Shown: positions 13,581-32,451 of the stretch, one piece after another
Numbering within the stretch: position 1 is the first letter of the stretch
How the letters are laid out: each line of letters begins with the position of its first letter
DNA from: an uncultured Nitrospinota bacterium
Lineage (GTDB): Bacteria; UBA8248
Direction of reading: 5' to 3'
Assembly (NCBI GenBank): GCA_947258645.1
Contig: CAMYJL010000005.1
Span: 1-32,451 of the forward strand
DNA length: 32,451 nt
Translations under genes and position numbers: made by a program
Notes under the pieces: generated by a model
Database searches by the model: none
What the model was told of the DNA's origin: nothing
Seen by the model: only the letters and a program-made list of their open reading frames with translations

Positions 13581-14312
13581 ATGCGAAAAGTTCGGTTCGT
13601 TTTTTTCCTCGGCTTTTTTATCGTCGGTGTCTTGGCCTGGACGATCCCGGGGGATGATGAAGCCGCCGCTTACCGGGACGGGGGATGGAACGCCACCTAC
13701 TCGAAGGGCCAGAAACTCTTTTCCATCCATTGCGCCGCCTGTCACGGAAAAAACGGGCAGGGCGGTATTGGTCTTCCGCTCAACCTCCAGAGTTTTCTTT
13801 CGGTCGCCCCGGACGGGTACATCCGTAAATCGATTTTTTACGGCCGCCTTCCCCGTCAAATGATTGCCTTCAACGCGATTCTCAAAAAAGAGGAAATCGA
13901 AGCCATCGCCTCCTATGTACGGGGCTGGCAGGTCAGCGACTACCAGGGAATCGACGCCAAGCGCGTGGCCGGATCGGCTGCCAAAGGAAAAGTTTTTTTT
14001 GACGGAATGTGCGCCGGGTGCCACGGGATTAACGGCCTGGGCGGTCCCCAGGTGGGCGGCGGCCACGTTACCAACTCTGTCGCCGGCTACGCCGGACCGT
14101 CGCTCAACAATCAGGGTTTCCTGAAATCCGCGACGGACGGTTACATCAAGGCGACCCTAATGTCGGGACGGGTCGGCACCCCGATGGGCGCCTACCTGAA
14201 GGGAAAGCAGGGCTTTGTGGAACTGGAGGAAAAAGAGATTAACGACTTGGTGGCCTATATCCGCTCCTGGGAAAAACAGGGCGCGGGGCCGCGCGACCCC
14301 TGGAGGGATTGA
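13581..14312 (+). CDS. Periplasmic diheme cytochrome c
   Basis: 243 residues with GGAGGG upstream of ATG. An N-terminal hydrophobic stretch (VFFLGFFIVGVLAW, residues 7-20) is a signal peptide or anchor. Two class I cytochrome c domains follow: CAACH at 51-55 with a probable Met ligand M94 (RLPRQMIAF), and CAGCH at 144-148 with probable M202 (RVGTPMGAY). Both domains contain GxGG loops after the heme site. The gene ends two bases before the NapA-like start, so it is almost certainly co-translated and is the likely electron donor to, or acceptor from, that enzyme. It may replace the diheme NapB, to which it shows no evident similarity by eye. Confidence 0.9.
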   Translation: MRKVRFVFFLGFFIVGVLAWTIPGDDEAAAYRDGGWNATYSKGQKLFSIHCAACHGKNGQGGIGLPLNLQSFLSVAPDGYIRKSIFYGRLPRQMIAFNAILKKEEIEAIASYVRGWQVSDYQGIDAKRVAGSAAKGKVFFDGMCAGCHGINGLGGPQVGGGHVTNSVAGYAGPSLNNQGFLKSATDGYIKATLMSGRVGTPMGAYLKGKQGFVELEEKEINDLVAYIRSWEKQGAGPRDPWRD

Positions 14313-14314
14313 AT

Positions 14315-16954: not shown

Positions 16955-17020
16955 CTCTTCCCGTCACCGGGGATGCGAGGCCATCCCGCCTCCCCGGTGC
17001 GGCTTTAAGGGAGGTTTCTT

Positions 17021-17617
17021 TTGGTTTCGACGCTGAAGCGAAGAGCCTTTCTTCAGATGGGCGCGGCGTTCATGGGCACGGCTGCCTTTTGTCTCGCCAC
17101 GGGCGGGCGGGCGATCGCGCAGGCCGCAAAACGCATCCGCCCCTTCCTGCGGCCGCCCGGAGCGCTTCCCGAGGAAGAATTTCTTCAGCGCTGCATCCGG
17201 TGCGCGCGCTGCGCCCAGGTCTGCCCCAACACCGCCATCCGTTTGAAGGGTTTCGGCTCCGGCCTGAAGCACCTGAACACCCCCTATCTCAGGCCGCGCG
17301 ATCAGGCGTGCATGCTCTGCATGAAATGCACCCAGGTTTGCCCGACCGGCGCCCTCAGGCCGATATCGGTGGCCGACGAAACCGTCCGCGCCGAAGTGCG
17401 AATGGGCCGGGCCGTCGTCGATAAATCGATGTGTTACTCCTACCAGAAGCGCACATGCGGCGTCTGCATCCGCGCGTGTCCCTTCCCCGGCGTCGCGATG
17501 AAAACGGGGCTTTACGAGCAGCCCATCGTGACGGACGCCTGCGTGGGCTGCGGCCTGTGCGAGCGTGCCTGCATCCACATCCCGCAGGCGATCCGCATCG
17601 TGCCGGTGGAGGCCTGA
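17021..17617 (+). CDS. NapG-like ferredoxin-type protein, first copy (four [4Fe-4S])
   Basis: A TTG start with GGGAGG 7 bases upstream; no ATG or GTG is better placed. The 198-residue protein starts with a Tat-like sequence (LKRRAFLQMGAAFMGTAAFC) and has four cysteine sets in order: CIRCARCAQVCP, CMLCMKCTQVCP, an extended set beginning CYSYQKRTCGVCIRACP, and CVGCGLCERAC. That arrangement matches NapG/MauM. NapG passes electrons from the membrane protein NapH to periplasmic acceptors, and the NapH-like gene starts 4 bases after this stop codon. A second NapG-like gene at 20103-20780 has the same four sets, so the two are duplicates. Confidence 0.88.
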   Translation: MVSTLKRRAFLQMGAAFMGTAAFCLATGGRAIAQAAKRIRPFLRPPGALPEEEFLQRCIRCARCAQVCPNTAIRLKGFGSGLKHLNTPYLRPRDQACMLCMKCTQVCPTGALRPISVADETVRAEVRMGRAVVDKSMCYSYQKRTCGVCIRACPFPGVAMKTGLYEQPIVTDACVGCGLCERACIHIPQAIRIVPVEA

Positions 17618-17621
17618 TCCC

Positions 17622-19148
17622 ATGCCCGGATGGCCTAGGCGCGTTGTCCAGATCGGCGCTCTCGCGTTTCTTCTCGCGGTTCCCGCGCTGAACTACGGGG
17701 GTGTCCTCTACCAGCAGTACGGAAAGAACGCCTACCACACCATTTCCCTCATGGGGACCGGCTTCGAGCGGGCGCTGTATCATCTTTTTTCGGCTGCGGT
17801 GGGCTTCCTGCCCGATCCGGCGGCGAGTTCAATCGCCATCGCCGGCGGGTTCGGCTCGTTCTCGCTCTTCGGGATCACCTTCCTCGATCCAGTGGTCGCC
17901 CTCGAAACCCTGCTGCGCGTGCCGGGGGCCTGGGCCAGTCTTCTCGCCGGGAGTGCGCTGACCCTTCTGATTGCTGCGCTGATGGGCCGCGTCTTCTGCG
18001 GGTGGATATGCCCGGTGAACACGATCCTGGAAGGTTTCGACGCGCTCCGGAAGCGGGCGCTCCCGCGCCTCGGCTTCCGGCCCCCCGACGTCGCAGCGCC
18101 GCGCTGGTTGAAGTGGGCGCTGCTGTTCATTGGGCTCGCCGCAGCGCTTCTGGCGGACCTGGCCCTGTGGGCGCATCTTCTGCCCCATGTGCAGATCGGA
18201 CGGGACGTTTTTTCGCTCATGGTTTTCGGTGGGGCGACTCTCGGCGCATGGATTTTCGCCGCCATCATCCTCGCCGAACTTTTATTCTCCCGCCGGGTGT
18301 GGTGCCGCTCGCTTTGTCCGACCGGCGCGTTGCTCGGCGGGCTCGGTTCTTTCGCCCTGGTTCGGGTCCACAAAAGCGTGGGGGCCTGTCTCGCCGATTG
18401 CGCCGCCTGTGCGCGAGTTTGTCCGATGGCCCTGAACCCGGCCGGGGCGTTTTCTCAGGCCGAATGTGTCAACTGTGCCGTTTGCGTCTCGTCGTGTCCG
18501 GCCGATCTGCTCCATCTTCTCCCGGCGTGCCCGCAGCACGCCGGTCTTTCGGAGGTATCTCCTGTGTTGAAACGGACAGCGGTGTTCATTCTGGTTCTGG
18601 CGGGCATGCTTCTTACCTATTCGCTGGTGTCGGCCCACCACATGCGGGGTCAGCCGCATTACGGGTACACGGAAAACTATCCGCAGACGCCGACCAAGGA
18701 AACCCGGGCGCATATTGGAAGGTTCGACGTCACCGTCGTGAGCTATTTCTTCGAGGGACTACGCCGGGAGCGCTCGGACACCCCGGACGACGTGCAGTTC
18801 TACATCAGTCTCGCGAACTCGAAGACGCATCAGAGCTACACCGGTCCGCTCGCCATCGAGCTCTGGCGGGAGGACCGCCGCATCGCGGCCTTCGATCACG
18901 CGCAGCCGTTCGAGGAGGCCGTCTACCGGTTTCGGCAGGCGGTTCCCGGGCCGGGGCGCTACGAGTTGCGCCTGGCTGCCGGGAAGGTGCGGGGCCGGGT
19001 GCATGTCGAAGTCGAGGGGAAGCCGGTCTCCAAAACGCCTTACGTCATCGGGGGACTCGCCGTCCTCCTCGCCGCGCTCTTTGTCCTGAACCGCCGGCGA
19101 CTCCGGATCGGCCGAAGAGGGAATGTTGATGTGGTACCTGGCGCGTAA
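17622..19148 (+). CDS. NapH-like membrane iron-sulfur protein with long C-terminal periplasmic domain
   Basis: Start at the ATG at 17622, with GGAGG 9 bases upstream and 4 bases after the NapG-like stop; an in-frame GTG at 17565 lies inside the previous gene. The product is 508 residues. The core has several membrane helices, two NapH-type Cx3CP motifs (FCGWICPVN and WCRSLCPTG) and two cytoplasmic [4Fe-4S] sites (CAACARVCP with its upstream cysteine, and CVNCAVCVSSCP). Unlike NapH (about 290 residues), it continues with a helix and then HHMRGQPHYGYTENYPQ near residue 339, about 130 residues of beta-rich sequence, and a last helix. The extension resembles the Ig-like periplasmic part of CcoG/FixG-type proteins in position; its His-rich start could bind metal. 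The core probably oxidises quinol or takes electrons from the cytoplasm. Confidence 0.85.
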   Translation: MPGWPRRVVQIGALAFLLAVPALNYGGVLYQQYGKNAYHTISLMGTGFERALYHLFSAAVGFLPDPAASSIAIAGGFGSFSLFGITFLDPVVALETLLRVPGAWASLLAGSALTLLIAALMGRVFCGWICPVNTILEGFDALRKRALPRLGFRPPDVAAPRWLKWALLFIGLAAALLADLALWAHLLPHVQIGRDVFSLMVFGGATLGAWIFAAIILAELLFSRRVWCRSLCPTGALLGGLGSFALVRVHKSVGACLADCAACARVCPMALNPAGAFSQAECVNCAVCVSSCPADLLHLLPACPQHAGLSEVSPVLKRTAVFILVLAGMLLTYSLVSAHHMRGQPHYGYTENYPQTPTKETRAHIGRFDVTVVSYFFEGLRRERSDTPDDVQFYISLANSKTHQSYTGPLAIELWREDRRIAAFDHAQPFEEAVYRFRQAVPGPGRYELRLAAGKVRGRVHVEVEGKPVSKTPYVIGGLAVLLAALFVLNRRRLRIGRRGNVDVVPGA

Positions 19149-20106
19149 GACGACACAAACCCTCGTCTTCCTCCTCGTCATCGCGGCCCCGGCGGCCGCG
19201 CTTTATGACGTGGCACAGCACGCCCGATCCATTTACGGGGAAAGCCTCGCCGCCCGGCGGATCGCCGAGATGGGCGCCGTTCCCGATCTTATGGTCAGGG
19301 CGCAGGAGTATATTTGGGGGTCACGGTCCCGGAATGCGCCGCCGCTTTCGGAATCTCTGGCCGGAAGCCCCTGGGCACTCCGGATCGGCGGCTACGTCAT
19401 GATCGAGCCGCTAAACGCGCTCGGCGCACTCGCGGCGGGTGGCGGCGCCGCCGGGAAAATTCTCCTGGCCGTCCTGCCGCTTCTTCTGCTTACCATCGTG
19501 CTCGGGCGGGTGTTCTGCGGCTGGCTGTGCCCGGTTCATTTCCTGCTGGAGATGACGGACAGCCTCCGGGCCACTCTGGTCCGTCTGGGCGTCCCCGTCC
19601 GGAACCTCCGCCTCAAACGCGGAGTGAAGTTCGCCGTCCTGGGTTTGGGGGCGCTTTCCACGTCCGTGATCGGCGCCCAGATATTCCCCCTCATTTATCC
19701 TCCCGCGGTTTTCGGAAGGGAGATGTTCGAATTTATTTTTTACGGGAGCTTGGGCGGGGGCGCTATTTTTCTGCTCGCCGTCGCGCTTGTCGAAATTTTT
19801 CTCTCCCGGCGCATCTGGTGCCGCTATCTTTGTCCGGGGGGCGGGCTCTACGCTCTCCTCGGGAGCTTCCGCGTTGTTTCGATCAATCGAGTTCCCTCGC
19901 TGTGCGACAGTTGCGGAGACTGCAATGAGACGTGTGCGTTCGGCCTCTCGCCGATGACGGATCGGACGGGCATGGAATGCACATCCTGCCTGGAGTGTGT
20001 ACGTTCCTGCCCCACGGACGCACTCGCCATCCGCCTGAATCTCCCCGGACATTTCAGGCCTCATGCGGATGCCGCTTCTTCGCTTTCCGGCGAGGAAGCC
20101 GCGTGA
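19123..20106 (+). CDS. napH: NapH-like membrane iron-sulfur protein, second copy
   Basis: 327 residues, with an ATG at 19123 overlapping the previous gene by 26 bases; GAAGAGGG precedes it, and an ATG two codons later is an alternative. Several membrane helices carry the Cx3CP motifs FCGWLCPVH and WCRYLCPGG, followed by two cytoplasmic [4Fe-4S] sets, CDSCGDCNETCAFG and CTSCLECVRSCP. Length and layout are those of ordinary NapH, without the long extension of the first copy. NapH forms a quinol-oxidising membrane complex with NapG. The gene overlaps the second NapG-like gene by 4 bases, so H-G form one translational unit here, in the opposite order to the first G-H pair. Confidence 0.88.
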   Translation: MLMWYLARKTTQTLVFLLVIAAPAAALYDVAQHARSIYGESLAARRIAEMGAVPDLMVRAQEYIWGSRSRNAPPLSESLAGSPWALRIGGYVMIEPLNALGALAAGGGAAGKILLAVLPLLLLTIVLGRVFCGWLCPVHFLLEMTDSLRATLVRLGVPVRNLRLKRGVKFAVLGLGALSTSVIGAQIFPLIYPPAVFGREMFEFIFYGSLGGGAIFLLAVALVEIFLSRRIWCRYLCPGGGLYALLGSFRVVSINRVPSLCDSCGDCNETCAFGLSPMTDRTGMECTSCLECVRSCPTDALAIRLNLPGHFRPHADAASSLSGEEAA

Positions 20107-20780
20107 AAACCGCTCGTCCACTGAAGAAGGGGGCGAAGTTGCATCGCCGGACGTTCGTGCGCCTGATCGGCTGGGCGGTTTCGGCGCTCGCCGTTGGCGG
20201 CGTCTCGTGGCTGGCGCGCCCGCTCGTCCAGCGCCCTCTGCGCCGGAGGCTGGCGGAGGATCATCCCTTCGCCGTTTACGTGAGCGGCCCGCTCCGTCCT
20301 CCCGGAGCGGTGGAAGAATCGCTTTTCCGGAAACGCTGCACGGGATGCTATCTTTGCGGGGAGGTCTGCCCGGTGAAAGCCATCCGCTTCGTGAGCGGAA
20401 CGGGGCTCGCCTCAGCGACGCCACTTGTCCTGCCCAACACGCGCGGGTGCATCCTTTGCATGCGGTGCACCCGGGTGTGCCCGACGGGGGCGCTTTCGCC
20501 GCTGGAAGAAGAACAGGCCGACCAAGTGCGGATGGGGGTGGCGGTTCTCGACAAGCGGACCTGTCTGCCGCACATCCACCGGGGTCGCTGCGAGGCCTGC
20601 TATACGGTTTGCCCCTTCAAGGGGGAGGCCATCATTCAAAAGGGGTTGCTCAAGCCCGAGGTCGTCGCGGAAAAATGCGTGGGCTGCGGTCTCTGCGAGG
20701 AAGTGTGCCCCGTTCCGACGAAAGCGATACACGTCCTGCCCCACGGAACGAAAGGGCGGCCGGCCCGGCGGCTGGTATGA
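20103..20780 (+). CDS. napG: NapG-like ferredoxin-type protein, second copy (four [4Fe-4S])
   Basis: A GTG start embedded in the previous stop (GTGA). The 225-residue protein begins with a Tat-like segment (LHRRTFVRLIGWAVSALAVG) and has four cysteine sets: CTGCYLCGEVCP, CILCMRCTRVCP, a spaced set ending CEACYTVCP, and CVGCGLCEEVCP. It is the size of classical NapG (about 230 residues) and longer than the first copy. It should be exported folded and bound to its clusters, linking the second NapH-like protein to periplasmic acceptors. It overlaps the following ferredoxin gene by 4 bases (ATGA). Confidence 0.87.
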   Translation: MKTARPLKKGAKLHRRTFVRLIGWAVSALAVGGVSWLARPLVQRPLRRRLAEDHPFAVYVSGPLRPPGAVEESLFRKRCTGCYLCGEVCPVKAIRFVSGTGLASATPLVLPNTRGCILCMRCTRVCPTGALSPLEEEQADQVRMGVAVLDKRTCLPHIHRGRCEACYTVCPFKGEAIIQKGLLKPEVVAEKCVGCGLCEEVCPVPTKAIHVLPHGTKGRPARRLV

Positions 20781-21397
20781 AGAACGGATTGGCTCAAGAC
20801 ATGGCGGACGAAAAGAGCATCGACCGGAAGACTTTTCTGAAAGAGGCGCCGATGGTGTTTCTGCGCGCCTTCGCGGAGGGCGCCCGCGAGGAGCGCTTCC
20901 CCGTAAAGCATGCTTCTCTTCCCGCCCTTCGCCCGCCCGGCGCGGCGGCCGGGGAGGAATTCCTGGAGCTATGCTGCGCAACCGGGGCGTGTGCGGAGGC
21001 CTGTCCGGCGGACGCCATCCAGATCCGCCCGCTCGAAGAAGACCCGGGGCGGGCCGCCCCCGTCATTGTGCCCACCGAGGCCGCCTGTGTTCTTTGCGAA
21101 GAGCTGGCCTGCATGGCGGCCTGCCCGAGCGGGGCGCTCACGCCCGTGCCCCGGGAGGAGATCCGGATCGGCCGGGCGCGGGTGAACCCCGACGAATGCC
21201 TCGCGTGGGGGGGGGTCGATCCCGGCTGCGATTATTGCGCCGACCGCTGCCCCCTCGGGGCTGGCGCCATTTCCATGGAAAAAACCGAACAGGGCAGGGG
21301 CCCAGTCGTGAAAGAGGGGTGTGTCGGCTGCGGGGTGTGCGAATTCTATTGCCCGGCGGGTCCGGCGGCGATTCAAATTATGGAACTACCTTCCTAA
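20777..21397 (+). CDS. NapF/NapG-like ferredoxin protein with four cysteine clusters
   Basis: The ATG at 20777 overlaps the preceding stop. The 206-residue product has four cysteine groups: CCATGACAEACP, CVLCEELACMAACP, a third starting CLAWGGVDPGCDYCADRCP, and CVGCGVCEFYCP. The N-terminus (DRKTFLKEAPMVFLRAF) lacks twin arginines and a convincing signal peptide, so a cytoplasmic location is more likely. That suits a NapF-like role, where NapF assists NapA maturation or feeds electrons before export. The first two groups have unusual spacing (C-C-x4-C and C-x2-C-x4-C), so not every cluster need be a normal [4Fe-4S]. It is the last gene of the operon. Confidence 0.8.
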   Translation: MKNGLAQDMADEKSIDRKTFLKEAPMVFLRAFAEGAREERFPVKHASLPALRPPGAAAGEEFLELCCATGACAEACPADAIQIRPLEEDPGRAAPVIVPTEAACVLCEELACMAACPSGALTPVPREEIRIGRARVNPDECLAWGGVDPGCDYCADRCPLGAGAISMEKTEQGRGPVVKEGCVGCGVCEFYCPAGPAAIQIMELPS

Positions 21398-22264: not shown

Positions 22265-24409
22265 ATGAACATCCGAAATGGTAAATTCCCGTCTGTGCTC
22301 CCGGCCATTGTTTTGTTGATACTCATCCTTCCGTTTCCCGTCTTTTTCATCCAGGCTTCTTCCGCGGCTTCCGAGGCGATCAAGACACAGGAAATTCTTC
22401 AGCTGGGGCAAAAATTAAAAAATAAAAGCGATGGTGTCTATCTTCTCAGTGGCTCGCCCGGGAAAGCACCGAAAGACGATCTTCTTTCGGAGCCCGTGAA
22501 GAAATCCGGCGAGGACGATCTCCTGTCCGGGCCGGAGGAAAAAACAAAATCTGAAGCCCAGAAAATAGACAATAAGGACGATCTTCTCAGCGGCTCGCCC
22601 GAAAAAAAACAACAAGACGATCTTCTTTCGGAGCCCGTGAAAAAATCGGACGATAAAGATCTCCTCTCTGAACCGGACAAAAAATCAAAATCTGAAACCC
22701 GAAAAATAGACAATAAGAAAAAGACCTCCCAGACAGTCACCGAGGAGGCCAGCGCGGCCCATGAGAAACTGTTTGCGGAGAGCCGCTATCCGTCGGCCGC
22801 CACCTGTGGAACCTGTCACCCCAAGCATTACCGGGAATGGTCCGTTTCGCAGCATTCCTACTCCCAGTTGAGCCCCGTTTACCTGTCGATCAGTAATTTT
22901 CTCAACTCAACGACCAGCGGAAGCATGGGGGATTTTTGTCTTCGCTGCCATAGCCAGGTAGGGGCGAACCTGAATGAGTCCCCCGCCATTTCCAACCTCG
23001 AACGGCATCCCACCTCCCGGGAGGGCATTACCTGCGTCGTATGTCACCGCATGAATCTGCCCTACAACAAGGCCAGCGGCCGGGTGGGCCTGGTGGAAGG
23101 GGATCTCCTGAAGCCCATCTATGGGCCGACGGGCGACAAGGAACTCCAGCGTGTCCTGAAGAATCCGGATAAATACCGGGTTGTCACTGAGTCGGGAAAG
23201 GCCGGCCGGAAGATTCACACCAACATCAAGAAATTCGAGCCCATCTCATCTTCCACCTTCTGCGGCTCCTGCCATGACGTCACGCTGTTCAATGGTTTCC
23301 GTCTCGAGGAGGCTTTCAGCGAATACCGGACCTCTCCGGCCGCGGCGAAGGGCGTGACTTGCCAGGATTGCCACATGGGCAAGACGCCGGGCGTTCCCTC
23401 GGGCTATGAGCGGGGCCCTGCGGCCGTCATCGGCAAGGTGCCGACGTCGCCGAGGAAATTGACCAACCACATGTTCCCCGGGCCGGATTTTTCGGTCATT
23501 CATCCGGGAATCTTCCCGCACAACGCCGAGGCGCAGAAGTTGGCCACTCTTAAGGAATGGCTCCAGTACGACCATAAGGCTGGGTGGGGGACGGACAAGT
23601 TTGAGGACAATGTGCCGCCCGGCTATCGATTCCCGGATCGGTGGAAGTCGGTGGATGACAGGGTCGAGGCCCGCGAGATTCTCAACGAGCAGTTCAAGCG
23701 GCTCGAGTGGGCGCGCGGGAAACGAAGGGAGATCCTCCGCAACGGATTCCGTCTGGGCGAGGTGGTGACGACCCAGGCGGACAAAAACGGGATCCGCCTG
23801 AAGGTCAAAGTGGAGAATCTCACCGACGGACACAACGTGCCGACAGGCTTTACCGGCGAGCGGGTGATCTGGCTCCAGGTGACGGTAACGGACGGGGATG
23901 GAAAGGTCATTTTCAAATCCGGCGACCTGGACCCGAACGGGGACGTGCGGGACCAGGAATCCGCCTATGTCCACAACGGCGAGCTGCCGTTGGACAAGCA
24001 ACTCTTCAATCTGCAGTCGCGGTTTGTTCATTCGAATGTGCGCGGCGGGGAACGTCTCCAGGTCATTCCCATACCGTTCACGATTACGGCGTTGCCGATT
24101 GTCCGGCCGTCGATTCAGTCCCTGATTCTAACCGGTGAGCCTTTGACCGAGCGGAACCATCGCAAGGGAATTGAACCCCTCGGCCACCGCTGGGCGAAAT
24201 ACACGATCGATTCGAGCGCCCTGACGGGGAAGGGCCCCTACGAAGCGAATGTACGGCTGATGATCGCCCCGATTCCGGCCAATTTAATCGGCGCCGTGCA
24301 AAGCGTGGGGTTCGACTATGGCATGAGCGCACGGCAGATCGCCGATACCGTGGTCGAAGGGCACGAAGCTCTTTGGGAGAAAAAAATCGCGATCGAGATC
24401 AAAAAATAG
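22265..24409 (+). CDS. Periplasmic pentaheme cytochrome c with N-terminal repeats and C-terminal beta domain
   Basis: 714 residues. A Sec signal peptide spans about 1-35 (VLPAIVLLILILPFPVFF then QASSAASE). Residues about 59-152 are a charged low-complexity segment built from DDLLSxP-type units. Five CxxCH sites follow: CGTCH (181), CLRCH (225), CVVCH (257), CGSCH (333) and CQDCH (366), with extra His residues available as distal ligands; the spacing resembles cytochrome c554-type folds. From about residue 490 a beta-rich domain (ENLTDGHNVPTGFTGERVIW, TVTDGDGKVIF) resembles the Ig-like tails of large multiheme cytochromes. It is followed 59 bases later by an outer-membrane barrel gene, so it may deliver electrons to or through the outer membrane. 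The exact family and acceptor are unknown. Confidence 0.85.
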   Translation: MNIRNGKFPSVLPAIVLLILILPFPVFFIQASSAASEAIKTQEILQLGQKLKNKSDGVYLLSGSPGKAPKDDLLSEPVKKSGEDDLLSGPEEKTKSEAQKIDNKDDLLSGSPEKKQQDDLLSEPVKKSDDKDLLSEPDKKSKSETRKIDNKKKTSQTVTEEASAAHEKLFAESRYPSAATCGTCHPKHYREWSVSQHSYSQLSPVYLSISNFLNSTTSGSMGDFCLRCHSQVGANLNESPAISNLERHPTSREGITCVVCHRMNLPYNKASGRVGLVEGDLLKPIYGPTGDKELQRVLKNPDKYRVVTESGKAGRKIHTNIKKFEPISSSTFCGSCHDVTLFNGFRLEEAFSEYRTSPAAAKGVTCQDCHMGKTPGVPSGYERGPAAVIGKVPTSPRKLTNHMFPGPDFSVIHPGIFPHNAEAQKLATLKEWLQYDHKAGWGTDKFEDNVPPGYRFPDRWKSVDDRVEAREILNEQFKRLEWARGKRREILRNGFRLGEVVTTQADKNGIRLKVKVENLTDGHNVPTGFTGERVIWLQVTVTDGDGKVIFKSGDLDPNGDVRDQESAYVHNGELPLDKQLFNLQSRFVHSNVRGGERLQVIPIPFTITALPIVRPSIQSLILTGEPLTERNHRKGIEPLGHRWAKYTIDSSALTGKGPYEANVRLMIAPIPANLIGAVQSVGFDYGMSARQIADTVVEGHEALWEKKIAIEIKK
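22440..22721 (+). repeat. Two tandem 141-bp units encoding DDLLS-rich peptide
   Basis: Copies at 22440-22580 and 22581-22721 align without gaps at an exact 141-base (47-codon) period; several blocks are identical, such as GACGATCTTCTTTCGGAGCC. Within each copy the peptide motif DDLLSxP recurs about every 14-16 residues. The duplication keeps frame and sits in the linker after the signal peptide. Confidence 0.9.
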
Positions 24410-24468
24410 AGCCGGTCCGGCGGACGGCGTTCATTGGCAATCTCCGGAGGCAAAAAGAAAGAGACAAT

Positions 24469-26277
24469 ATGATAGAACCTCCCTGGCATCTTTTTCGTGG
24501 CCTAATATACGGCACTGTCTTCATCATTTTGGTATGGCATCAAATCTTTTATAGTCACCTGGCAAGGGCTTCGGAAGGAATTTATTACGTCAGGAGAATT
24601 GTAGAGCGGCGCGCCCGAAGCAAACCGGCGGTCCGGAACAGGCGGGTGGTTCGGAACAAGCAGACGGCCCGAAACAATTCCGTTGAAGTGGCTCGGAACC
24701 ATCCGGAGGAAACGGCCCGGCGAGAAGCGTCTGAGTTGGCCCGGATCGATTCTAATGAGACGGCCCAAAACGGTTCAACTGGAGCCGCGTGGAGTGTTGC
24801 GAAGAAGACAGTTCAAAGTGGTTCGGCTGGAACTGTCTGGAGCGATGCAAAAAAGACGGCCCAAAGTGATTCAACTGGAGCCGCCTGGAGTGTTGCGAAG
24901 AAGACAGTTCAAAGCGGTTCGGCTGGAACGGCCCGGAAAGAGCCAGTTCAGGTCGCCGGAGGATTTGCCATCGGCGAGAAAACCGGAGAGAGCCGCCTCT
25001 CGGATAAACCGACGGAATTTCATTCGGCGGACAAGGTCCCGGAACGTCCTCCCTTGCTGATCGAGCTGGGCGATCCGTTTCTCCATCAGGGGAACCTGAA
25101 TCCCGGCTTCGAGCTTCCGGGCGGGGCGGTGTGGCAGCCGCGCCTTTGGATATTCGGAACACTTCGAACGGCGATTCAATCCTTCGATAACGGCGTCGAT
25201 CCCGGAATCACCGAGTGGGCCAGCCGGTTCGATCTTTTTGCCAATCTCCAGCTGACGGGAACGGAGAAAATCCTTGTCGGAATCCGCCCCTTGGACCGGA
25301 ACCGGTTCAGCGAGTTCACGCGGTATTCGTGGAGCCCGGAAAATTCGTTCCGCGACGAAACCAACGTCGACATCCGCACCCTGTTTTTCGAAGGCGACTT
25401 CGGGAGCCTGTTTCCCTTTCTGGATCCGAAGGGGACAAAGCCGATCGATTTCGGGTTCTCCGTCGGCCGCCAGCCTCTCGTATTTCAGGACGGCATTCTG
25501 ATCAACGATACCGTGGACGCAGTGGGAGTCGTCCGGAACAACATTCATCTTCCGGGTGTCTCGAATTTGCGGGCCACCGCGGTGTACGGGTGGGGCGAAC
25601 TCGACAGCAACCGCCCCGACCCCGATGCGACCATGATCGGCCTGTTTCTCGCGGCCGACCTTCCCGTCAGCACGGTAGAGATCGACGGAATCTACGTGAA
25701 AGATGACGGTCAGGGGAACGACGGCTCTTTCCATTTTGGCGCCTCCGCGACCCAACGGATCGGCGAGCTGAACACCACCTTCCGCGCGAATGCTTCCACC
25801 GCCGAGGACAGGGACACCGTGGGAGTCAGCGACGGCGTGCTCCTCTCGGCGGAGCTCTCGTTTACGCCGCACCGATCGGACGACAACGTTTATTTCAACG
25901 CCTTTTGGGCCATCGACAACTACACCCAGGCCGGGCGGGAACCGGTGGTCGGAGGGCCCCTCGCGACGTTCGGAATTCTTTTCGCTTCGGTCAGTCTCGG
26001 AAATTATCTGTCCGAGCTGAGCAGCCGGGCGAACGAGGTGGCGGGAGGCGCGTTGGGTTATCAGGCATTCTGGGATCAGCACCGGAAAAATCTCGTTTTC
26101 GAAATCGCGGGCCGATTCGATACGAGCGGGAAGGGAAACGACGATATCGCCCTCGGAATCCAATACCAGCAAAAACTGACCCAAAGGCTTCTCTGGCAAA
26201 TCGATACTTTTTATTCGTTCCAGGACGGACGCGACGACGCCTTCGGGGGGCGGATGGAGCTTCTCTACCAGTTCTAG
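24469..26277 (+). CDS. Outer-membrane beta-barrel porin-like protein with N-terminal tandem repeats
   Basis: I chose the ATG at 24469; an in-frame TTG at 24373 would add 32 charged residues in front of the signal peptide and overlap the previous gene. The product is 602 residues. A signal peptide ends near residue 38 (GLIYGTVFIILVWHQIFYSHLARAS). Then comes a basic, Arg/Asn-rich stretch and a 16-residue tandem repeat (about 97-161). From about residue 205 the protein shows alternating amphipathic strands (PRLWIFGTLRTAIQSF, WASRFDLFANLQLTG, IDFGFSVGRQPLVFQDGILI) and ends in ELLYQF, with the C-terminal Phe needed for BAM insertion. The fold resembles alginate-export/phosphate-selective porins. 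It may be a channel or a barrel partner for the adjacent cytochromes. Confidence 0.8.
   Translation: MIEPPWHLFRGLIYGTVFIILVWHQIFYSHLARASEGIYYVRRIVERRARSKPAVRNRRVVRNKQTARNNSVEVARNHPEETARREASELARIDSNETAQNGSTGAAWSVAKKTVQSGSAGTVWSDAKKTAQSDSTGAAWSVAKKTVQSGSAGTARKEPVQVAGGFAIGEKTGESRLSDKPTEFHSADKVPERPPLLIELGDPFLHQGNLNPGFELPGGAVWQPRLWIFGTLRTAIQSFDNGVDPGITEWASRFDLFANLQLTGTEKILVGIRPLDRNRFSEFTRYSWSPENSFRDETNVDIRTLFFEGDFGSLFPFLDPKGTKPIDFGFSVGRQPLVFQDGILINDTVDAVGVVRNNIHLPGVSNLRATAVYGWGELDSNRPDPDATMIGLFLAADLPVSTVEIDGIYVKDDGQGNDGSFHFGASATQRIGELNTTFRANASTAEDRDTVGVSDGVLLSAELSFTPHRSDDNVYFNAFWAIDNYTQAGREPVVGGPLATFGILFASVSLGNYLSELSSRANEVAGGALGYQAFWDQHRKNLVFEIAGRFDTSGKGNDDIALGIQYQQKLTQRLLWQIDTFYSFQDGRDDAFGGRMELLYQF
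24759..24950 (+). repeat. Two 96-bp tandem units (48-bp sub-period) in the porin gene
   Basis: The second unit repeats the first after exactly 96 bases (GACGGCCCA at 24759 and 24855). At protein level each half is a 16-residue motif, AQxGSTGAAWSVAKKT alternating with VQSGSAGTVWSDAKKT, in about 3.5 copies. The frame is preserved. This is a minisatellite-like expansion in a linker, not a CRISPR array. Confidence 0.9.
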
Positions 26278-26339
26278 ACCAAATGACCGGCGCCGCTGCC
26301 TCAGCCCGGTCTGATTTTGTCATCGGATGAAACGGAGCC

Positions 26340-28151
26340 ATGAACTTGACGCAATTATCGGAAATGTGGGACGGGCTCTCGGCCACAGTGGAGATGGCCG
26401 ACATTTTTCATTTCGCCATCCTGGCCATCTTCTCAGTCATTCTGGGCGAGATGATCGCGATGCTGTTCTCGCGCATGTACCGCATGATGTATGAGCGCGC
26501 CCAGCAAAAGCTCCGCCTCTCCCTTCTGAGGGCAGAGGTGGACCAGGCGATCGGCCCTCATGCCGGTGCCCGGAAGAGGGCCCATGCCTGGCAAGGCTAC
26601 CGGAAGTTCCGGGTTCTCAAAAAAATAACGGAGTGCCGGGATGTCTGTTCGGTGTATCTGGTTCCCCATGACGGGAAGCCGCTCCCTTCCTTCCGGCCGG
26701 GACAGTTTCTGACGCTTCGCCATCGCGCGCCGGAGATGAACATTGGCAACGGAAAAGAAGTCGTTCGCTGTTATTCGATTTCGAGCAGTCCCGATGTGAA
26801 TGACTGTTACAGAATATCCATCAAAAAGGTTCCCCCTCCATACGGAAGCGTGAATATCCCGCCGGGTCTCATGTCGAATTACTTCCATCACCACGTCGAC
26901 AATGGAGACATCGTAGATGTCATGGCGCCATCCGGGAACTTTTCCTTGGAGGCAAAACGGAACACCCCGATTGTGCTCATTTCCAACGGCATCGGGATTA
27001 CCCCGTTGCTCAGCATGCTGGACGCCATGATCCAATCGGGAGAGAAGCGCGAGGTGTGGTTGTTTTTCGGGTTCCGGTGCAAGGAGGAACACCCTTTTCA
27101 GAAACATATCCAGAATATCGCGGAAGAAAACGATCAAATTCATTTGAACGTCTGCTACAGCAACCCCGGACCGGGCGATTTGCCCAGGTGGGACTATGAT
27201 CACCAAGAACGGATTGGCGTCGATCTGCTGAAGCGGCTTCTCCCGTCCAATAATTATAAATTCTACCTGTGCGGCTCCCAAGAGATGGTGACGACCCTGA
27301 CGGACGGACTCAGGGCGTGGGGGGTGCCAGATCCTGACATCAAGTCGGAATCATTTGGCCCCGGAGCCGCAACCCGGGAGTTGATCCCCAGTTCCCCGCC
27401 GGAGCGGGCGAACGGAGAATGTCCCCTGAATTTTTCTCGGGGAAAGCTGGGAATGACCTCCTTTAAAACCCTGGGCGCGGTGAAATGGAGCCTGGTGTGG
27501 ACGAAGACGCAGAGCCGTTCGGCCAAGGCTGGGTTAAATGGTGCCTCCCCGGCCGGAGAGAAGTTTATGGGCTGGTTGCTCATGAGCCAGCAAAGCGGAT
27601 GGCGGGCGGTCATGTCCTTCAACGCCTCAGGGAAGTTTCTGAGCGGGTCGCTCTCGCCGTCGAGCCGAATGACGAGTCCCTTCAAGCAACTTCTTTCCGA
27701 ATTGACCGGAAGGGAACCGGAGGAAGTCATCGTCCGGCTGGAGAGACTTTTTGAGCAGGACCGGAACAAGGCCGAGGCGCTGGACCTCTCCGTCTGGCTG
27801 AAACTGATCCGGGCGTTTCCCGCCGTAAAGGCGGACAGCGCGCCTTACAGGATGGCGTTCCATTCGGCTCTGAACGCAAAGCCCGAAACGGAAAAGAAAG
27901 TGACAGTGACGTTTTCCAAAAGCAAGAAAACCCTGGAATGGGACTCGTCGTCCAGTTCGCTCCTGGATTTCGCCCATCGGAACGGCGTCTCCATCGAAGC
28001 GAATTGCCGATCGGGAAATTGCGGTGCGTGCATTACGGCGTTGAAAAAAGGTGGGGTCGTCTATCTGCGGGCGCCGGGAAGGGAAACGGCAGATGGTTCA
28101 TGCCTGACCTGCATCGCCGTTCCCAAGGAAAATTTAACGCTTCAAGCCTGA
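26340..28151 (+). CDS. Membrane-anchored FAD/NAD(P)H oxidoreductase with C-terminal [2Fe-2S] ferredoxin domain
   Basis: 603 residues; ATG with CGGAGCC upstream. A membrane helix lies near 23-46 (DIFHFAILAIFSVILGEMIA). The FAD domain has FRPGQFLTLRH and the flavin motif RCYSISSSP. The NAD(P) domain follows with LISNGIGITPLLSMLDAM, YKFYLCGSQEMV and ESFGPG. After a roughly 150-residue middle segment, a plant-type [2Fe-2S] domain closes the protein with CRSGNCGACIT and a final cysteine in SCLTC. The order FNR then ferredoxin matches Hcr/Hmp-like and phenol-hydroxylase-type reductases, but the anchor and long middle segment are unusual. It would feed NAD(P)H electrons into the membrane or cytochrome chain. 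The middle part shows signs of a frame disturbance between about 27470 and 27680. Confidence 0.85.
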   Translation: MNLTQLSEMWDGLSATVEMADIFHFAILAIFSVILGEMIAMLFSRMYRMMYERAQQKLRLSLLRAEVDQAIGPHAGARKRAHAWQGYRKFRVLKKITECRDVCSVYLVPHDGKPLPSFRPGQFLTLRHRAPEMNIGNGKEVVRCYSISSSPDVNDCYRISIKKVPPPYGSVNIPPGLMSNYFHHHVDNGDIVDVMAPSGNFSLEAKRNTPIVLISNGIGITPLLSMLDAMIQSGEKREVWLFFGFRCKEEHPFQKHIQNIAEENDQIHLNVCYSNPGPGDLPRWDYDHQERIGVDLLKRLLPSNNYKFYLCGSQEMVTTLTDGLRAWGVPDPDIKSESFGPGAATRELIPSSPPERANGECPLNFSRGKLGMTSFKTLGAVKWSLVWTKTQSRSAKAGLNGASPAGEKFMGWLLMSQQSGWRAVMSFNASGKFLSGSLSPSSRMTSPFKQLLSELTGREPEEVIVRLERLFEQDRNKAEALDLSVWLKLIRAFPAVKADSAPYRMAFHSALNAKPETEKKVTVTFSKSKKTLEWDSSSSSLLDFAHRNGVSIEANCRSGNCGACITALKKGGVVYLRAPGRETADGSCLTCIAVPKENLTLQA

Positions 28152-28163
28152 GCTGGCGAGCAA

Positions 28164-29246
28164 ATGGAGAATCCTCTGGTGTCCATCAACCGATCGCGAA
28201 AGATGAAAATGAACCCCGGAATTTTTTCTGAACTTCCTGCGGGAGCGCAAATTTTGGTAGGCGCCTGTCTGGTGGCAATCGCCGTTTTCTATGCGGGTCC
28301 GAAAGAAGCCCATGCCGCTCCCGACCCCAAGCTGGTTGTCGGGCCGGGCGAGTGCGGCGAGTGCCATGCCTCCGAGGTGACGGCATGGCGAAAGACCAGA
28401 CATTTCAAAGCGTTTCGCGGCCTCACCCGGAGGGGCGACGCCCTCCAGATTGCCAAGAAAATGGGGATCAAGCGCATTAAGCGGGAAAGTCTTTGCATGA
28501 ATTGCCATTTTACCTCGAAGCCCAGGAAAAAAAGGATCAAGCCCATCGCCGGGATTTCCTGTGAGTCCTGCCACGGGGCGGCCAAAAAATGGGTCGATGT
28601 CCATCAAAACTTCGGGGGAAAGGGGGCCACGAAGAAGACGGAACCCCCCGAGCACAAGAAGCAGCGTCTGATGAAGATGAAGGCGGGGGGGATGATTCGT
28701 CCCGCCGAGATTTATCGGCTCGCCCGGAACTGCTTTCAGTGCCACACGGTTCCCTATGAAAAACTGGTCAACGTCGGAGGCCATACGCCGGGCAGCAAAT
28801 TCGACCTGGTCTCGTGGCTGCAAGGAGAGGTTCGCCACAATTATCTGGCCAGCAACGGGAAGAAAAACGCCAAGGCGTCCCCGGAGCGCAAGCGGGTTCT
28901 TTTTGTCGTCGGAAAGGCGGTCGAGCTTGAATACAACCTGAGAGGGGTCGCCAAGGCCACGAAAAAGGCCACCTATGCCGTGAAGATGGCCAGGCGCGCC
29001 AAGGCCGCGATGGATGCCTTCAAGAAAATTTCCGGTGTCGTGTCGGCCCCCGAGATTCAAAAAATTCTGGCCGCCTCGGCATCCGTCCGGTTGAAGCTGA
29101 ACAACGAAAAGGAATTGCTGCGCGCGGCGGACATCGTCTCCCGGGAGGCGGAGAAGCTTGGCAGGAAGTACGACGGGGCCCGGTGGGCCAAGCTGGATCC
29201 GCTCATCCCCAAGCAGGATCAATACAAAGGAAAGCCGGCAAAGTAA
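28164..29246 (+). CDS. Tetraheme cytochrome c554-like periplasmic protein
   Basis: 360 residues from the ATG at 28164; an ATG at 28203 (14th codon) would give a shorter, more usual signal peptide and may be the real start. Neither has a clear ribosome site. The signal peptide ends near KEAHAAPDPK. Four heme sites follow: CGECH (64), CMNCH (111), CESCH (133) and CFQCH (190). Numerous His residues nearby (TRHFKAF, VDVHQNF) can be distal ligands. The arrangement fits the cytochrome c554 family, known from ammonia oxidisers as the acceptor for hydroxylamine oxidoreductase. The C-terminal 130 residues are helical, Lys- and Ala-rich and without hemes. The gene lies 12 bases after the reductase. A shuttle role between membrane and outer-membrane partners is inferred. 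Confidence 0.85.
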   Translation: MENPLVSINRSRKMKMNPGIFSELPAGAQILVGACLVAIAVFYAGPKEAHAAPDPKLVVGPGECGECHASEVTAWRKTRHFKAFRGLTRRGDALQIAKKMGIKRIKRESLCMNCHFTSKPRKKRIKPIAGISCESCHGAAKKWVDVHQNFGGKGATKKTEPPEHKKQRLMKMKAGGMIRPAEIYRLARNCFQCHTVPYEKLVNVGGHTPGSKFDLVSWLQGEVRHNYLASNGKKNAKASPERKRVLFVVGKAVELEYNLRGVAKATKKATYAVKMARRAKAAMDAFKKISGVVSAPEIQKILAASASVRLKLNNEKELLRAADIVSREAEKLGRKYDGARWAKLDPLIPKQDQYKGKPAK

Positions 29247-29285
29247 TTCTCTTTTTTGGGAAATTTGGGAAAACTCTGGGACACG

Positions 29286-31004
29286 ATGAGAAATTCATTC
29301 CGATCGATACGAACACCGCAACGGTGGGATGAGCCGTTCGGGCCGGACATGACGGACGCGGACGTGGATTGGCTTCTGAAAAAAGATCCGTTCAGTGAAA
29401 TCGATCCCGCGAATTTTTCCGAGACCACACCCTTCCGCGGCATTCTGAAAAACGACACGCGCATCACGCGGTACAAGCGCGGCGAAATCGTGATTCGGAA
29501 GGGGGATTACGACAATTTCGCTTTCCTGATCCTCGAGGGGAGCGTTCGCGTATTTCTGGACGACCTGGATGAGGAAATCCTCGGTCGGCAAAAGCCCGAA
29601 AAAAAATACATTCTCCGATCGTTCCGCCAGTTGTGGTCCAATTCTCCGATCGCGGAGTTCCGGGATGTCTCGTCTTTCCAGAATTCCAGTGGAACCAGGT
29701 TGCGCCGGGAAGGAAAGGACATCCATGTTTTCCTGCAAAATTATCCCTCCGTGATCCATCGTTACAGTACGGATCGCCTCGAGGAAGGGAGCATGTTCGG
29801 GGAAATTGCGGCGCTGGGGCGAACGCCTCAACCGGCCACTGTGATAGCGGACGAAGGCTGCGTTCTTTGCGAAATCAGGTGGCAGGGGCTGCATGAAATC
29901 CGGCGGCGGGACGAGGGAATCCGCCATTACGTGGACCGGCTTTACCGCGAGCGCAGTTTAAAGGAACACCTGCGGAACACGCCCGATTTCAGTCATCTGG
30001 ATGAGAAAGATATCCAGTTCATCTCGGAAAACACGCTGTTCGAAACCTACGGCGATTTCGACTGGCATACGAGCTATACCGCCTTCTCCCGGATGGACCC
30101 CGCCGAGCGGCTGGAGTACGAGCCGATCATCGCCGAGGAGGGGAGTTATGCGGATGGTCTGATCATCATCCGGGCCGGATTCGCCCACCTTCTTGAAAAG
30201 GTGGATCACGGCTACCGCACCATCAGCTACCTCGGGCGAGGGGCGACGTTTGGGTTCAATGAAATCTGTCACAATTACCGGTTCGACGAAAAAGTCCCCT
30301 TTCAGCAGACCTTGCGGGCAATGGGGTATGTGGATGTTCTGCGGGTGCCCACCTCGATCGTGGAACAGTATGTGGTTTCGTCCATGCCGGAGAAGAAGCT
30401 GCCGCCCCGGATCCGGACCGGGCAGCCTTCCCAGTCGATCTGGAAAAAGGTGAACAGCGAACGCAAGCTCGAGGCCGGGTTGTGGGAGTTTCTCGTCGAT
30501 AACCGGTTTATCAATGGCACGAGTACCATGCTCATCGATCTGAATCGGTGCACCCGTTGCGACGATTGCGTGACGGCATGCGCCGGGGCGCATGACGGTA
30601 ATCCCCGGTTCATCCGGAGCGGCAAGCGGTTCGGCAAGTTCCTGGTGGCGAACGCCTGCATGCATTGCATCGACCCGGTGTGCATGATCGGATGCCCCAC
30701 GGGAGCGATCCACCGAAGCTCATATGAAGGGCAGGTCGTCATCAATGACAATACGTGCATCGGATGTTCCACCTGTGCGAACAGTTGTCCCTACGACAAC
30801 ATCCAGATGGTCCAGATTCGGGAAAAGCACGGAGCATTTGTCATCGATCAGGCAACCAACGCTTCGATCGAAAAGGCGACGAAGTGCGATCTGTGCATTG
30901 ATCAAATCGGCGGACCGGCCTGTCTGGGTGCCTGCCCGCACGATGCGTTGGCGCGCATCGATGTGCGGGACGAAGACGCCCTCCTCAAATGGACGCAAAG
31001 ATAA
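29286..31004 (+). CDS. Fusion of two cNMP-binding-like domains with a four-cluster ferredoxin
   Basis: 572 residues from the ATG at 29286; an in-frame TTG at 29256 is the alternative start. Domain 1 (about 45-215) is a cyclic-nucleotide-binding barrel with an internal insert; its phosphate cassette reads FGEIAALGRTPQPATVIA, where the Arg that contacts the cyclic phosphate is Gln. Domain 2 (about 235-360) is a second barrel (EEGSYADGLIIIRAG, YLGRGATFGFNEI), also without the canonical cassette. The C-terminal 150 residues form a DmsB/HybA-like ferredoxin: CTRCDDCVTAC, CMHCIDPVCMIGCP, CIGCSTCANSCP and CDLCIDQIGGPACLGACP. It has no signal peptide, so it is cytoplasmic. It abuts the cytochrome b-like gene (TAATG), suggesting a complex that takes electrons to or from the membrane, with the barrels as a docking or sensory part. 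Confidence 0.85.
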   Translation: MRNSFRSIRTPQRWDEPFGPDMTDADVDWLLKKDPFSEIDPANFSETTPFRGILKNDTRITRYKRGEIVIRKGDYDNFAFLILEGSVRVFLDDLDEEILGRQKPEKKYILRSFRQLWSNSPIAEFRDVSSFQNSSGTRLRREGKDIHVFLQNYPSVIHRYSTDRLEEGSMFGEIAALGRTPQPATVIADEGCVLCEIRWQGLHEIRRRDEGIRHYVDRLYRERSLKEHLRNTPDFSHLDEKDIQFISENTLFETYGDFDWHTSYTAFSRMDPAERLEYEPIIAEEGSYADGLIIIRAGFAHLLEKVDHGYRTISYLGRGATFGFNEICHNYRFDEKVPFQQTLRAMGYVDVLRVPTSIVEQYVVSSMPEKKLPPRIRTGQPSQSIWKKVNSERKLEAGLWEFLVDNRFINGTSTMLIDLNRCTRCDDCVTACAGAHDGNPRFIRSGKRFGKFLVANACMHCIDPVCMIGCPTGAIHRSSYEGQVVINDNTCIGCSTCANSCPYDNIQMVQIREKHGAFVIDQATNASIEKATKCDLCIDQIGGPACLGACPHDALARIDVRDEDALLKWTQR

Positions 31005-31870
31005 TGGCGATTTCCGCGAAAGAATTTCTCAAAACCGCTGCGCTGCTTGTGTTGTGCCTGGCGGCCGTTCTGGTGCATCGGGCCTACGGCGCTTCCCTGC
31101 TCCATTCGCAGTACTGGAGCGGGTGGACGCTGCTTTTCCTCGTGATTTTTCTGTCGCTCTACAATGTCCGGAAAAAGCTGACGTTTCTCCCGTTCGGCAC
31201 AGCTTCGCTGTGGCTCCAGGCCCATGTGCTGGCCGGGTGGTTCTGCGTGCTCCTTTTTCTGCTCCATGTGGAGATGCGCCTGCCGAACGGACCTCTGGAA
31301 TCGGCCATGGCCTTTATTTTTATGGGGGTGGCCCTCAGCGGGCTGATCGGGTTGTGGATTTCCCGGAGCTTTCCCCCCCGTCTGACGCGGCATGGCCACG
31401 TGCATCTTTCGCGGGTTCGGCGCGAATGGGGGAATATGGATGAAGATGTGATTTACGAGAAAATCCCGGAATTTTACCGGAAGATTCGGGAGCGGGCGGA
31501 AGCCATCGTCATCCAGTCGGCGAAGGAATCCCGTTCCAACACGATCCCGGATTTTTACGTTGACCGACTCGACGCCTTCTTCAGCGGTCCCCGGAGCTTC
31601 TGGCTCCACATTATCGGCTCGAGCCGGCCCTTGGCTGCAATTTTGAGTGAAATCACGATCCTCGAGCAGTATCTCAACTCCGAGGAAAAGCGGCTATCCA
31701 GGGAGCTGAGCGCGCTGGTTCGCCTCAAGTGTCACATGGATTTTCATCATGCCCTTCAGGGGCTTTTGAAACGGTGGTTGTTCGTCCATATCCCGCTGAC
31801 TTATGTTCTTCTGCTTTTTATTTTTGTTCACGTGGTTCTGGTCTATGCTTTTTCGATGGGAAATCCGTGA
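31004..31870 (+). CDS. Five-helix membrane protein, probable diheme cytochrome b
   Basis: Start at the ATG at 31004, sharing one base with the preceding stop; an ATG five codons earlier is possible. The protein is 288 residues. Helices lie near 11-28, 40-54, 70-90, 100-120 and 258-282, with a cytoplasmic or periplasmic loop of about 135 residues between the fourth and fifth. Two helices each hold a His pair at the same spacing: H74/H88 (AHVLAGWFCVLLFLLH) and H262/H276 (VHIPLTYVLLLFIFVH). H-x13-H on two helices is the pattern that holds two stacked b hemes in cytochrome b and NOX/ferric-reductase-type proteins. No similarity to a specific family is certain. It would pass electrons across the membrane between the cNMP-ferredoxin protein or quinol and the cytochromes c. 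Confidence 0.75.
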   Translation: MAISAKEFLKTAALLVLCLAAVLVHRAYGASLLHSQYWSGWTLLFLVIFLSLYNVRKKLTFLPFGTASLWLQAHVLAGWFCVLLFLLHVEMRLPNGPLESAMAFIFMGVALSGLIGLWISRSFPPRLTRHGHVHLSRVRREWGNMDEDVIYEKIPEFYRKIRERAEAIVIQSAKESRSNTIPDFYVDRLDAFFSGPRSFWLHIIGSSRPLAAILSEITILEQYLNSEEKRLSRELSALVRLKCHMDFHHALQGLLKRWLFVHIPLTYVLLLFIFVHVVLVYAFSMGNP

Positions 31871-31884
31871 GATCGTGATTCGTA

Positions 31885-32451
31885 ATGCGAATTTTTGAGC
31901 GGCCTCAATATGAACGGCCGTCGCAGAGATGGGTATGCGGCTGGGCGTCGGAGGGGCGCCCTTGCGCCATTGGGCCGAATCCCCGGGGCCGTTGCATCGC
32001 CACCTGTGAATGCAGCCCGATCCGGAAGGAAGGGCGGTGGTTCTGTACGCGATCAAGCGCCTACGGAGGCCCGTGCGCCGAGGGGCCCCTGCCGGATGGC
32101 GCTTGCTGTAAAACCATCCAGAAGTGCCAACCGGTTCTGAGCCAACGCGCCAGGCGGGGCACGCTTTCGAAATCGCTCTTCTGGTCCGCATTCGGGGTCT
32201 TGCTGCTTCTCATTCTCAGCTCTTTGGGGCCGGCGGTCATCTCTCCGGGAGAGCTCGCCGCTCCCCACAAATTTCTGAATCAAAAATGCAAGACCTGTCA
32301 TTCGGCCTTCGAGTCCGGAGCGGCGGGATGGCTGTCTGCTGCCCTGACCGCCCGGGAGCGCCCGGATGAGAGCCGGAAATGTCTGGCCTGTCATGTGCTC
32401 GGCGACAGCGGGCAAATGGCGCATGGCGTGGCGCCCCGCCGTTTGTCAAAA
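31885..32451 (+). CDS. Membrane-anchored multiheme cytochrome c with duplicated Cys-rich cytoplasmic domain (3' end outside window)
   Basis: The frame is open from the ATG at 31885 (14 bases after the previous stop) to the window edge, 189 codons. Residues 1-95 hold ten cysteines between 18 and 81, arranged as two similar halves: RWVCGWASEGRPCAIGPNPR and, further on, RWFCTRSSAYGGPCAEGPLP, each ending in a G-x-C. An Arg-rich segment and one helix (FWSAFGVLLLLILSSLG, about 99-115) follow, so by the positive-inside rule the cysteine part is cytoplasmic. Beyond the helix are two heme sites, CKTCH (135-139) and CLACH (166-170), with more probable downstream. The cysteines could bind zinc or an iron-sulfur cluster. 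The start is not backed by a strong ribosome site, but the in-frame TGA at 31876-31878 limits the alternatives. Confidence 0.72.
   Translation, partial: MRIFERPQYERPSQRWVCGWASEGRPCAIGPNPRGRCIATCECSPIRKEGRWFCTRSSAYGGPCAEGPLPDGACCKTIQKCQPVLSQRARRGTLSKSLFWSAFGVLLLLILSSLGPAVISPGELAAPHKFLNQKCKTCHSAFESGAAGWLSAALTARERPDESRKCLACHVLGDSGQMAHGVAPRRLSK

Follow-up and report, generated by a model that had tools for sequence, protein, structure and literature searches.

PCC4 subgroup II was predicted from genomics in a survey of iron-oxidizing bacteria (He, Barco, Emerson and Roden, 2017; PMC5566968) and comprises a porin, multiheme cytochromes (MHCs) with four, five and ten hemes, and an inner-membrane protein that bears two WX3HX13H motifs and an SGXXG motif. 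A pfam13247 Fe-S gene is found upstream of the gene for the inner-membrane protein, a redox gene upstream of the tetraheme gene, and no extracellular MHC is encoded (PMC5566968). The hosts reported in 2017 were Zeta-, Gamma- and Alphaproteobacteria and Planctomycetes; an analogy between the inner-membrane protein and ferric reductase/NOX was drawn, and the electrons were proposed to flow from a donor outside the cell to quinone (PMC5566968). Later use of the name PCC4 in the literature searched was found in a single passing comparison, and no experiment on any PCC4 member was found there. A barrel gene placed next to a gene for a periplasmic multiheme cytochrome is also typical of MtrCAB, MtoAB and PioAB, whose resemblance to the locus described here is one of working principle only.

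The window analyzed is a stretch of 32,451 nucleotides that represents one whole contig of the draft genome of an uncultured Nitrospinota bacterium (UBA8248; GCA_947258645.1, contig CAMYJL010000005.1), with its last gene cut at the contig end. Its final third carries a cassette that is almost certainly a PCC4 subgroup II operon. The present analysis adds to PCC4 a wider taxonomic spread, a division into core and module, a conserved cNMP motif, gene fusions and the size of the barrel.

Gene content and comparison with PCC4 subgroup II

Seven closely spaced plus-strand genes occupy positions 22265-32451. The gaps between them (59, 62, 12, 39, -16 and 14 bp) indicate an operon, and 867 bp separate the cassette from the block upstream. 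The first gene (22265-24409) encodes a periplasmic pentaheme c-type cytochrome of 714 aa with a signal peptide, a low-complexity linker, five CXXCH motifs and a C-terminal beta domain, and the second (24469-26277) an outer-membrane beta-barrel, or "porin", in which a low-complexity N-terminal region precedes a barrel of about 18 strands. They are followed by an NAD(P)H reductase, membrane-anchored at its N-terminus, with FAD_binding_6, NAD_binding_1 and C-terminal [2Fe-2S] (Fer2) domains (26340-28151) and by a tetraheme c-type cytochrome of the c554 family with four CXXCH motifs (28164-29246; PF13435, E 1.7e-17). The product of the fifth gene (29286-31004, alternative TTG start at 29256), referred to as cNMP-ferredoxin, consists of two cNMP-fold domains and then four [4Fe-4S] sites. 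The sixth gene (30989-31870) encodes a diheme inner-membrane cytochrome b with WX3HX13H at residues 75 and 263 and SGXXG at residue 117, and the last (31885-32451) is the 5' part of a decaheme cytochrome gene, covering a Cys-rich cytoplasmic domain, one TM helix and the first two of ten CXXCH motifs.

Pfam and NCBIfam models detected c554/c7 heme domains, the combination FAD_binding_6, NAD_binding_1 and Fer2, and cNMP_binding together with Fer4_11 (PF13247), while no Pfam family matched the barrel or the membrane protein. The ORFs and these matches recover the seven adjacent genes of the kinds that had been listed in an initial annotation made from the sequence alone, and its count of at least 13 heme c sites holds as well (CXXCH 5 + 4 + 2 in the cassette, plus two in the diheme protein at 13581-14312). 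Judging from the motifs, the full set would bind 19 c-hemes, two b-hemes, four [4Fe-4S] clusters, one [2Fe-2S] cluster and FAD.

The cassette shares with PCC4 subgroup II the porin, recovered by a barrel model and Foldseek, the inner-membrane protein with its two WX3HX13H motifs and SGXXG, and the absence of an extracellular MHC. The pfam13247 gene lies directly upstream of that of the inner-membrane protein, with a 16-bp overlap, and the redox gene upstream of the tetraheme gene is the FAD/NAD/Fer2 reductase. Cytochromes with four and five hemes are complete in the window, and the ten-heme cytochrome is recovered as 2 + 8 motifs across two contigs of this genome (C5 and C307) and with all ten in two relatives. 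One Mariprofundus (Zetaproteobacteria) locus and loci of Pirellulaceae carry the cassette too. The window differs from the published subgroup in belonging to another bacterial lineage, in a reductase with a unique insert and in the opposite direction of electron flow that is favored here. Neither the tandem cNMP domains nor the cytoplasmic Cys-rich domain of the decaheme cytochrome appear in the 2017 main text, in which the term "cyclic nucleotide" is absent (PMC5566968), and no literature linking cNMP, multiheme, 4Fe-4S and Planctomycetes was found. The exact set of genes had been presented in the initial annotation as unfamiliar; it had already been named in 2017 from genomics, so that this claim of novelty largely falls. 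A second candidate, the verrucomicrobial porin-MHC system (He et al., 2017, mSphere), was rejected, the periplasmic cytochrome of that system having eight hemes.

The truncated last gene could be followed beyond the window. Its full-length form in G006 and G014, two genomes from the family of the window, carries ten hemes, and the very end of contig C307 of the window's own genome (G000:C307) holds a 477-aa frame with eight CXXCH motifs. By protein homology, this frame is the continuation of the decaheme gene (2 + 8 = 10 CXXCH); there is no overlap between the contig ends, and a gap of about 40 residues separates the two parts. The N-terminal domain of the decaheme cytochrome (31885-32151 in the window; L037:16700-16999 in another locus) contains two repeats of four Cys each, all eight nearly invariant, ahead of the TM helix. 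It matched no known family; binding of metal or Fe-S is possible. Downstream of the cassette G006 and G014 have a glutamate-dehydrogenase-like gene (L035:11035-12414; G006:C97), unlike the window's genome, where an FAD-binding, phytoene-dehydrogenase-like gene comes after the decaheme frame of C307.

Core genes and outer-membrane pair across bacteria

A total of 84,980 species genomes were scanned with the cNMP-ferredoxin alone and the best 80 loci were taken, hence the frequencies given below are those of this sample and not those in nature. Since the ferredoxin was the sole query, the neighboring genes provide independent evidence. The best 80 loci belong mostly to Alphaproteobacteria, Verrucomicrobiota and Planctomycetota, with further hosts among Acidobacteriota, Elusimicrobiota, SAR324, Kiritimatiellae and Mariprofundus. 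Loci from at least six bacterial phyla have the core with its gene neighborhood preserved, and two genomes of the window's own family (G006 and G014) contain all seven genes in the window's order. Within that family the full set is present in only 3 of 18 genomes.

The arrangement was resolved in 35 deep loci, those flanked by 8.5 kb or more in both directions. The reductase (FNR), cNMP-ferredoxin, cytochrome b and decaheme cytochrome occur in all 35 and the tetraheme cytochrome in 29, whereas porin and pentaheme cytochrome are both present in 21, both missing in 14 and never found one without the other. Comparative synteny thus delimits a five-gene core (reductase, cNMP-ferredoxin, cytochrome b, membrane-anchored decaheme and tetraheme cytochromes) and a predicted outer-membrane module, the pentaheme cytochrome with the 18-strand barrel, which is optional and strictly paired. 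Heme numbers of 5, 4 and 10 are nearly invariant across the loci. The window shows the commonest full order (pentaheme-porin-FNR-tetraheme-ferredoxin-cytochrome b-decaheme), which is seen in 16 loci, and in 10 loci the outer-membrane pair is placed after the decaheme gene. Among further neighbors no eighth constant member emerged, only scattered families and the verrucomicrobial tetraheme-like gene described below. A ferredoxin homolog on the short contig L116 has no cytochrome b or decaheme gene within the 6 kb downstream. A ferredoxin tree built by a quick method groups the sequences mostly by phylum with several exceptions; the spread may be ancient and include some transfer.

Several verrucomicrobial loci that lack the porin and pentaheme genes (L069, L087, L094, L098, L104 and L124) contain a divergent, oppositely transcribed tetraheme-like gene with three CXXCH motifs and an apparent CX4CH. 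In some such loci, further large barrel-like or multiheme genes lie close by and may represent an alternative outer-membrane module.

Gene fusions occur in distant relatives. On a Sphingobium plasmid (WP_231568103 to WP_037469325) a pyridine-nucleotide flavoprotein is fused to cNMP-cNMP-4x[4Fe-4S], and this gene is followed by those of a cytochrome b with two HX13H pairs and a TM-anchored 10-heme protein, the same row of components as in the window. The flavoprotein of the Sphingobium locus differs, being a fused protein of pyridine-nucleotide-disulfide type, and so does the decaheme protein, which has a cytoplasmic FHA domain; no PCC4 pentaheme or porin gene was found near this locus. In two other genomes the cNMP-ferredoxin is fused to cytochrome b.

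The block upstream of the cassette (13581-21397) encodes a NapA-like molybdopterin oxidoreductase, the diheme c protein at 13581-14312 and duplicated NapG/NapH-type ferredoxins. Its GC content is about 0.62, compared with about 0.55 around it, the catalytic gene scores 332 bits against the NCBIfam NapA equivalog cut-off of 904, and in two related genomes the block is not beside the cassette. It was rejected as part of the system on account of this lack of linkage, the different GC content and the weak NapA score, and is possibly an acquired, non-nitrate molybdoenzyme. The proposal of the initial annotation that the locus serves nitrogen or sulfur respiration thus finds no support.

Predicted properties of the proteins

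The cNMP-ferredoxin (29256-31004 when read from the alternative start) matched both PF00027 and PF13247, the latter with E 3.2e-10, and its 16 conserved Cys correspond to four 4Fe-4S sites. Its structure model (pLDDT 84) retrieved the tandem CNB domains of PKA-R/PKG in Foldseek (E 3e-16), so the two cNMP-like domains and four clusters read initially from the sequence are confirmed, with domain 2 degenerate and devoid of the phosphate-binding Arg. Nearly all of the 48 homologs compared display in domain 1 the motif FGE-x-AL-x-R-x-P-R-[TS]-[AS]-T; the phosphate-binding Arg is present in 46 of the 48 and the G-E is likewise kept. As the motif is retained so widely, a cyclic nucleotide may gate the entry of electrons. 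In the window's own copy Gln replaces this Arg, and the sequence reads Q-P in place of R-T/S (residues 191-193; 29826-29834).

The reductase, whose N-terminal segment is hydrophobic, contains an insert of about 150 aa (27387-27839) between the NAD and [2Fe-2S] domains that is absent from all of the other homologs (about 70). No other copy of the insert was detected in the rest of the genome and no direct repeats flank it; it is either genuine or the product of misassembly. Considering the insert together with the Gln-for-Arg replacement, the window's PCC4 copy may be atypical or decaying.

In cytochrome b, His79, 93, 267 and 281, which form two HX13H pairs, are invariant in 76 of 76 sequences, as are the Trp of the motifs. 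A PDB sequence search gave no match, nor did PF01794, the ferric reductase TM domain, with which only the HX13H pattern is common. The likeness to ferric reductase/NOX lies in the two HX13H pairs for two b hemes and the FAD/NAD(P)H donor; here, however, the reductase is a chain distinct from the b protein, with a polyferredoxin as the bridge.

The pentaheme cytochrome gave a profile match to 5ze8, the penta-heme cytochrome c552 of Thermochromatium tepidum, and its heme region is homologous to c552 and to the ExtKL/MccSep pentaheme family, although it scores 36 bits with the ExtKL model, far under the 250-bit cut-off, and differs from these proteins in its barrel partner and long N-terminal linker. 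Five hemes are present in 37 of 38 homologs, along with at least five further invariant His outside CXXCH, enough for bis-His ligation. The tetraheme cytochrome adds to its four CXXCH motifs four conserved distal-type His, as expected for a bis-His electron carrier and not for an enzyme; the same probably applies to the pentaheme cytochrome.

In 37 of 38 cases a homolog of the barrel gene adjoins that of the pentaheme cytochrome and shares its strand. The AlphaFold model of the barrel (pLDDT 82.5, about 18-19 strands) resembles AlgE/OprD/MOMP in Foldseek (E down to 4.5e-11); it should be noted that the structure models are of single chains without heme. With an AlgE/OprD-like barrel of some 18 strands, the threading of a large cytochrome through it in the manner of MtrAB is doubtful, and a cytochrome docked at the barrel would be compatible with the model. 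The pair differs from MtrCAB, MtoAB and PioAB in this barrel of about 18 strands, which without a Pfam match is not MtrB_PioB (PF11854), and in its globular pentaheme partner; in addition, the entry point is an NAD(P)H reductase chain and not a quinol dehydrogenase.

Proposed electron path, direction and alternative readings

Electrons would pass from cytoplasmic NAD(P)H to FAD, [2Fe-2S] and the four [4Fe-4S] clusters of the cNMP-ferredoxin, and from there to the two b hemes, crossing the inner membrane to the decaheme cytochrome. The tetraheme cytochrome would shuttle them to the pentaheme cytochrome at the barrel, which may deliver them to an acceptor beyond the inner membrane and perhaps outside the cell. 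This order is based on the fusions of flavoprotein to cNMP-ferredoxin and of ferredoxin to cytochrome b in distant relatives. A similar chain had been put forward in the initial annotation; its parts and sequence agree with synteny, and its outer-membrane step is tentative, the barrel model of about 18 strands being AlgE/OprD-like and not MtrB-like.

NAD(P)H-driven export is considered the probable main direction, with modest confidence. It is favored by the presence of a cytoplasmic NAD(P)H-type reductase in every deep locus, by the fusions, which place the flavoprotein at the cytoplasmic end, and by the absence of RuBisCO, looked for as a sign of lithoautotrophy, from the 18 genomes of the window's family, 16 of which encode heme-copper oxidases; mixotrophic use is compatible with that absence. 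In NOX and ferric reductases outward electron flow through bis-heme b proteins follows the membrane potential, as would presumably apply here, and import to NAD+ would have to work against that potential. Among porin-cytochrome MAGs studied in 2026, carbon fixation was found in few, and that study likewise favored export. None of these points is decisive, and the lack of the porin-pentaheme pair in 14 of 35 deep loci counts against the proposed chain. The chain would conserve no energy by itself, so its role could be redox balance, acceptor reduction or metal acquisition.

The published PCC4 model runs in the opposite sense: an extracellular donor, for example Fe(II), would supply electrons that enter through porin and pentaheme, pass the tetraheme and decaheme cytochromes and reach quinone at cytochrome b, after which the Fe-S proteins and the reductase would make NAD(P)H. 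The occurrence of PCC4 in marine zetaproteobacterial Fe(II) oxidizers and in Hyphomicrobium relatives from water filters, and its lack of an extracellular MHC, as in MtoAB and PioAB (PMC5566968), are consistent with uptake, and so is the Mariprofundus locus among the best 80. Quinone reduction, however, needs neither a cytoplasmic NAD(P)H-type reductase nor four [4Fe-4S] sites, the transfer of electrons to NAD+ without assistance is strongly uphill, and the missing RuBisCO argues against uptake as well. Most of the hosts found here (Nisaea, Tistlia, Lacipirellula) are not known as iron oxidizers, which also speaks against uptake, and this direction is regarded as unlikely.

Also unlikely is a periplasmic reductase with its own substrate porin, in which the barrel would admit a small oxidized solute, the pentaheme or tetraheme cytochrome would reduce it with electrons from NAD(P)H, and none would cross the outer membrane. 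The likeness of the barrel to AlgE/OprD/MOMP solute channels fits such a system, the 14 deep loci that manage without porin and pentaheme are in line with it, and the Geobacter ExtI porin sits with the ExtKL pentaheme cytochromes and is reportedly linked to selenite/tellurite reduction. But the tetraheme cytochrome, and probably the pentaheme, have His for bis-His ligation at every heme and leave no open catalytic heme visible, and neither porin nor pentaheme is present without the other, a pairing also known from porin-cytochrome conduits. A chance neighborhood of unrelated redox genes beside the nap block, suggested by the mixed gene families and the molybdopterin/NapGH block upstream, is refuted by synteny and has practically no probability left: the same content recurs in at least six phyla with the core in all deep loci, and the nap block is unlinked elsewhere.

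Returning to export, PCC4 can tentatively be pictured as a cyclic-nucleotide-gated, NAD(P)H-driven exporter of heterotrophs, a modular inner-membrane machine with swappable outer-membrane modules. If this is true, reducing power would be discharged, in response to a signal, to acceptors in the periplasm or outside the cell. Both a direction and a regulatory input are thereby suggested, and no earlier proposal of either was found. The invariant core and the optional paired module extend across many phyla, including the cultured Nisaea, Tistlia, Lacipirellula and Hwanghaeella, of which Nisaea denitrificans has both core and pair, so that a system so far named from genomics only is now testable in culturable strains.
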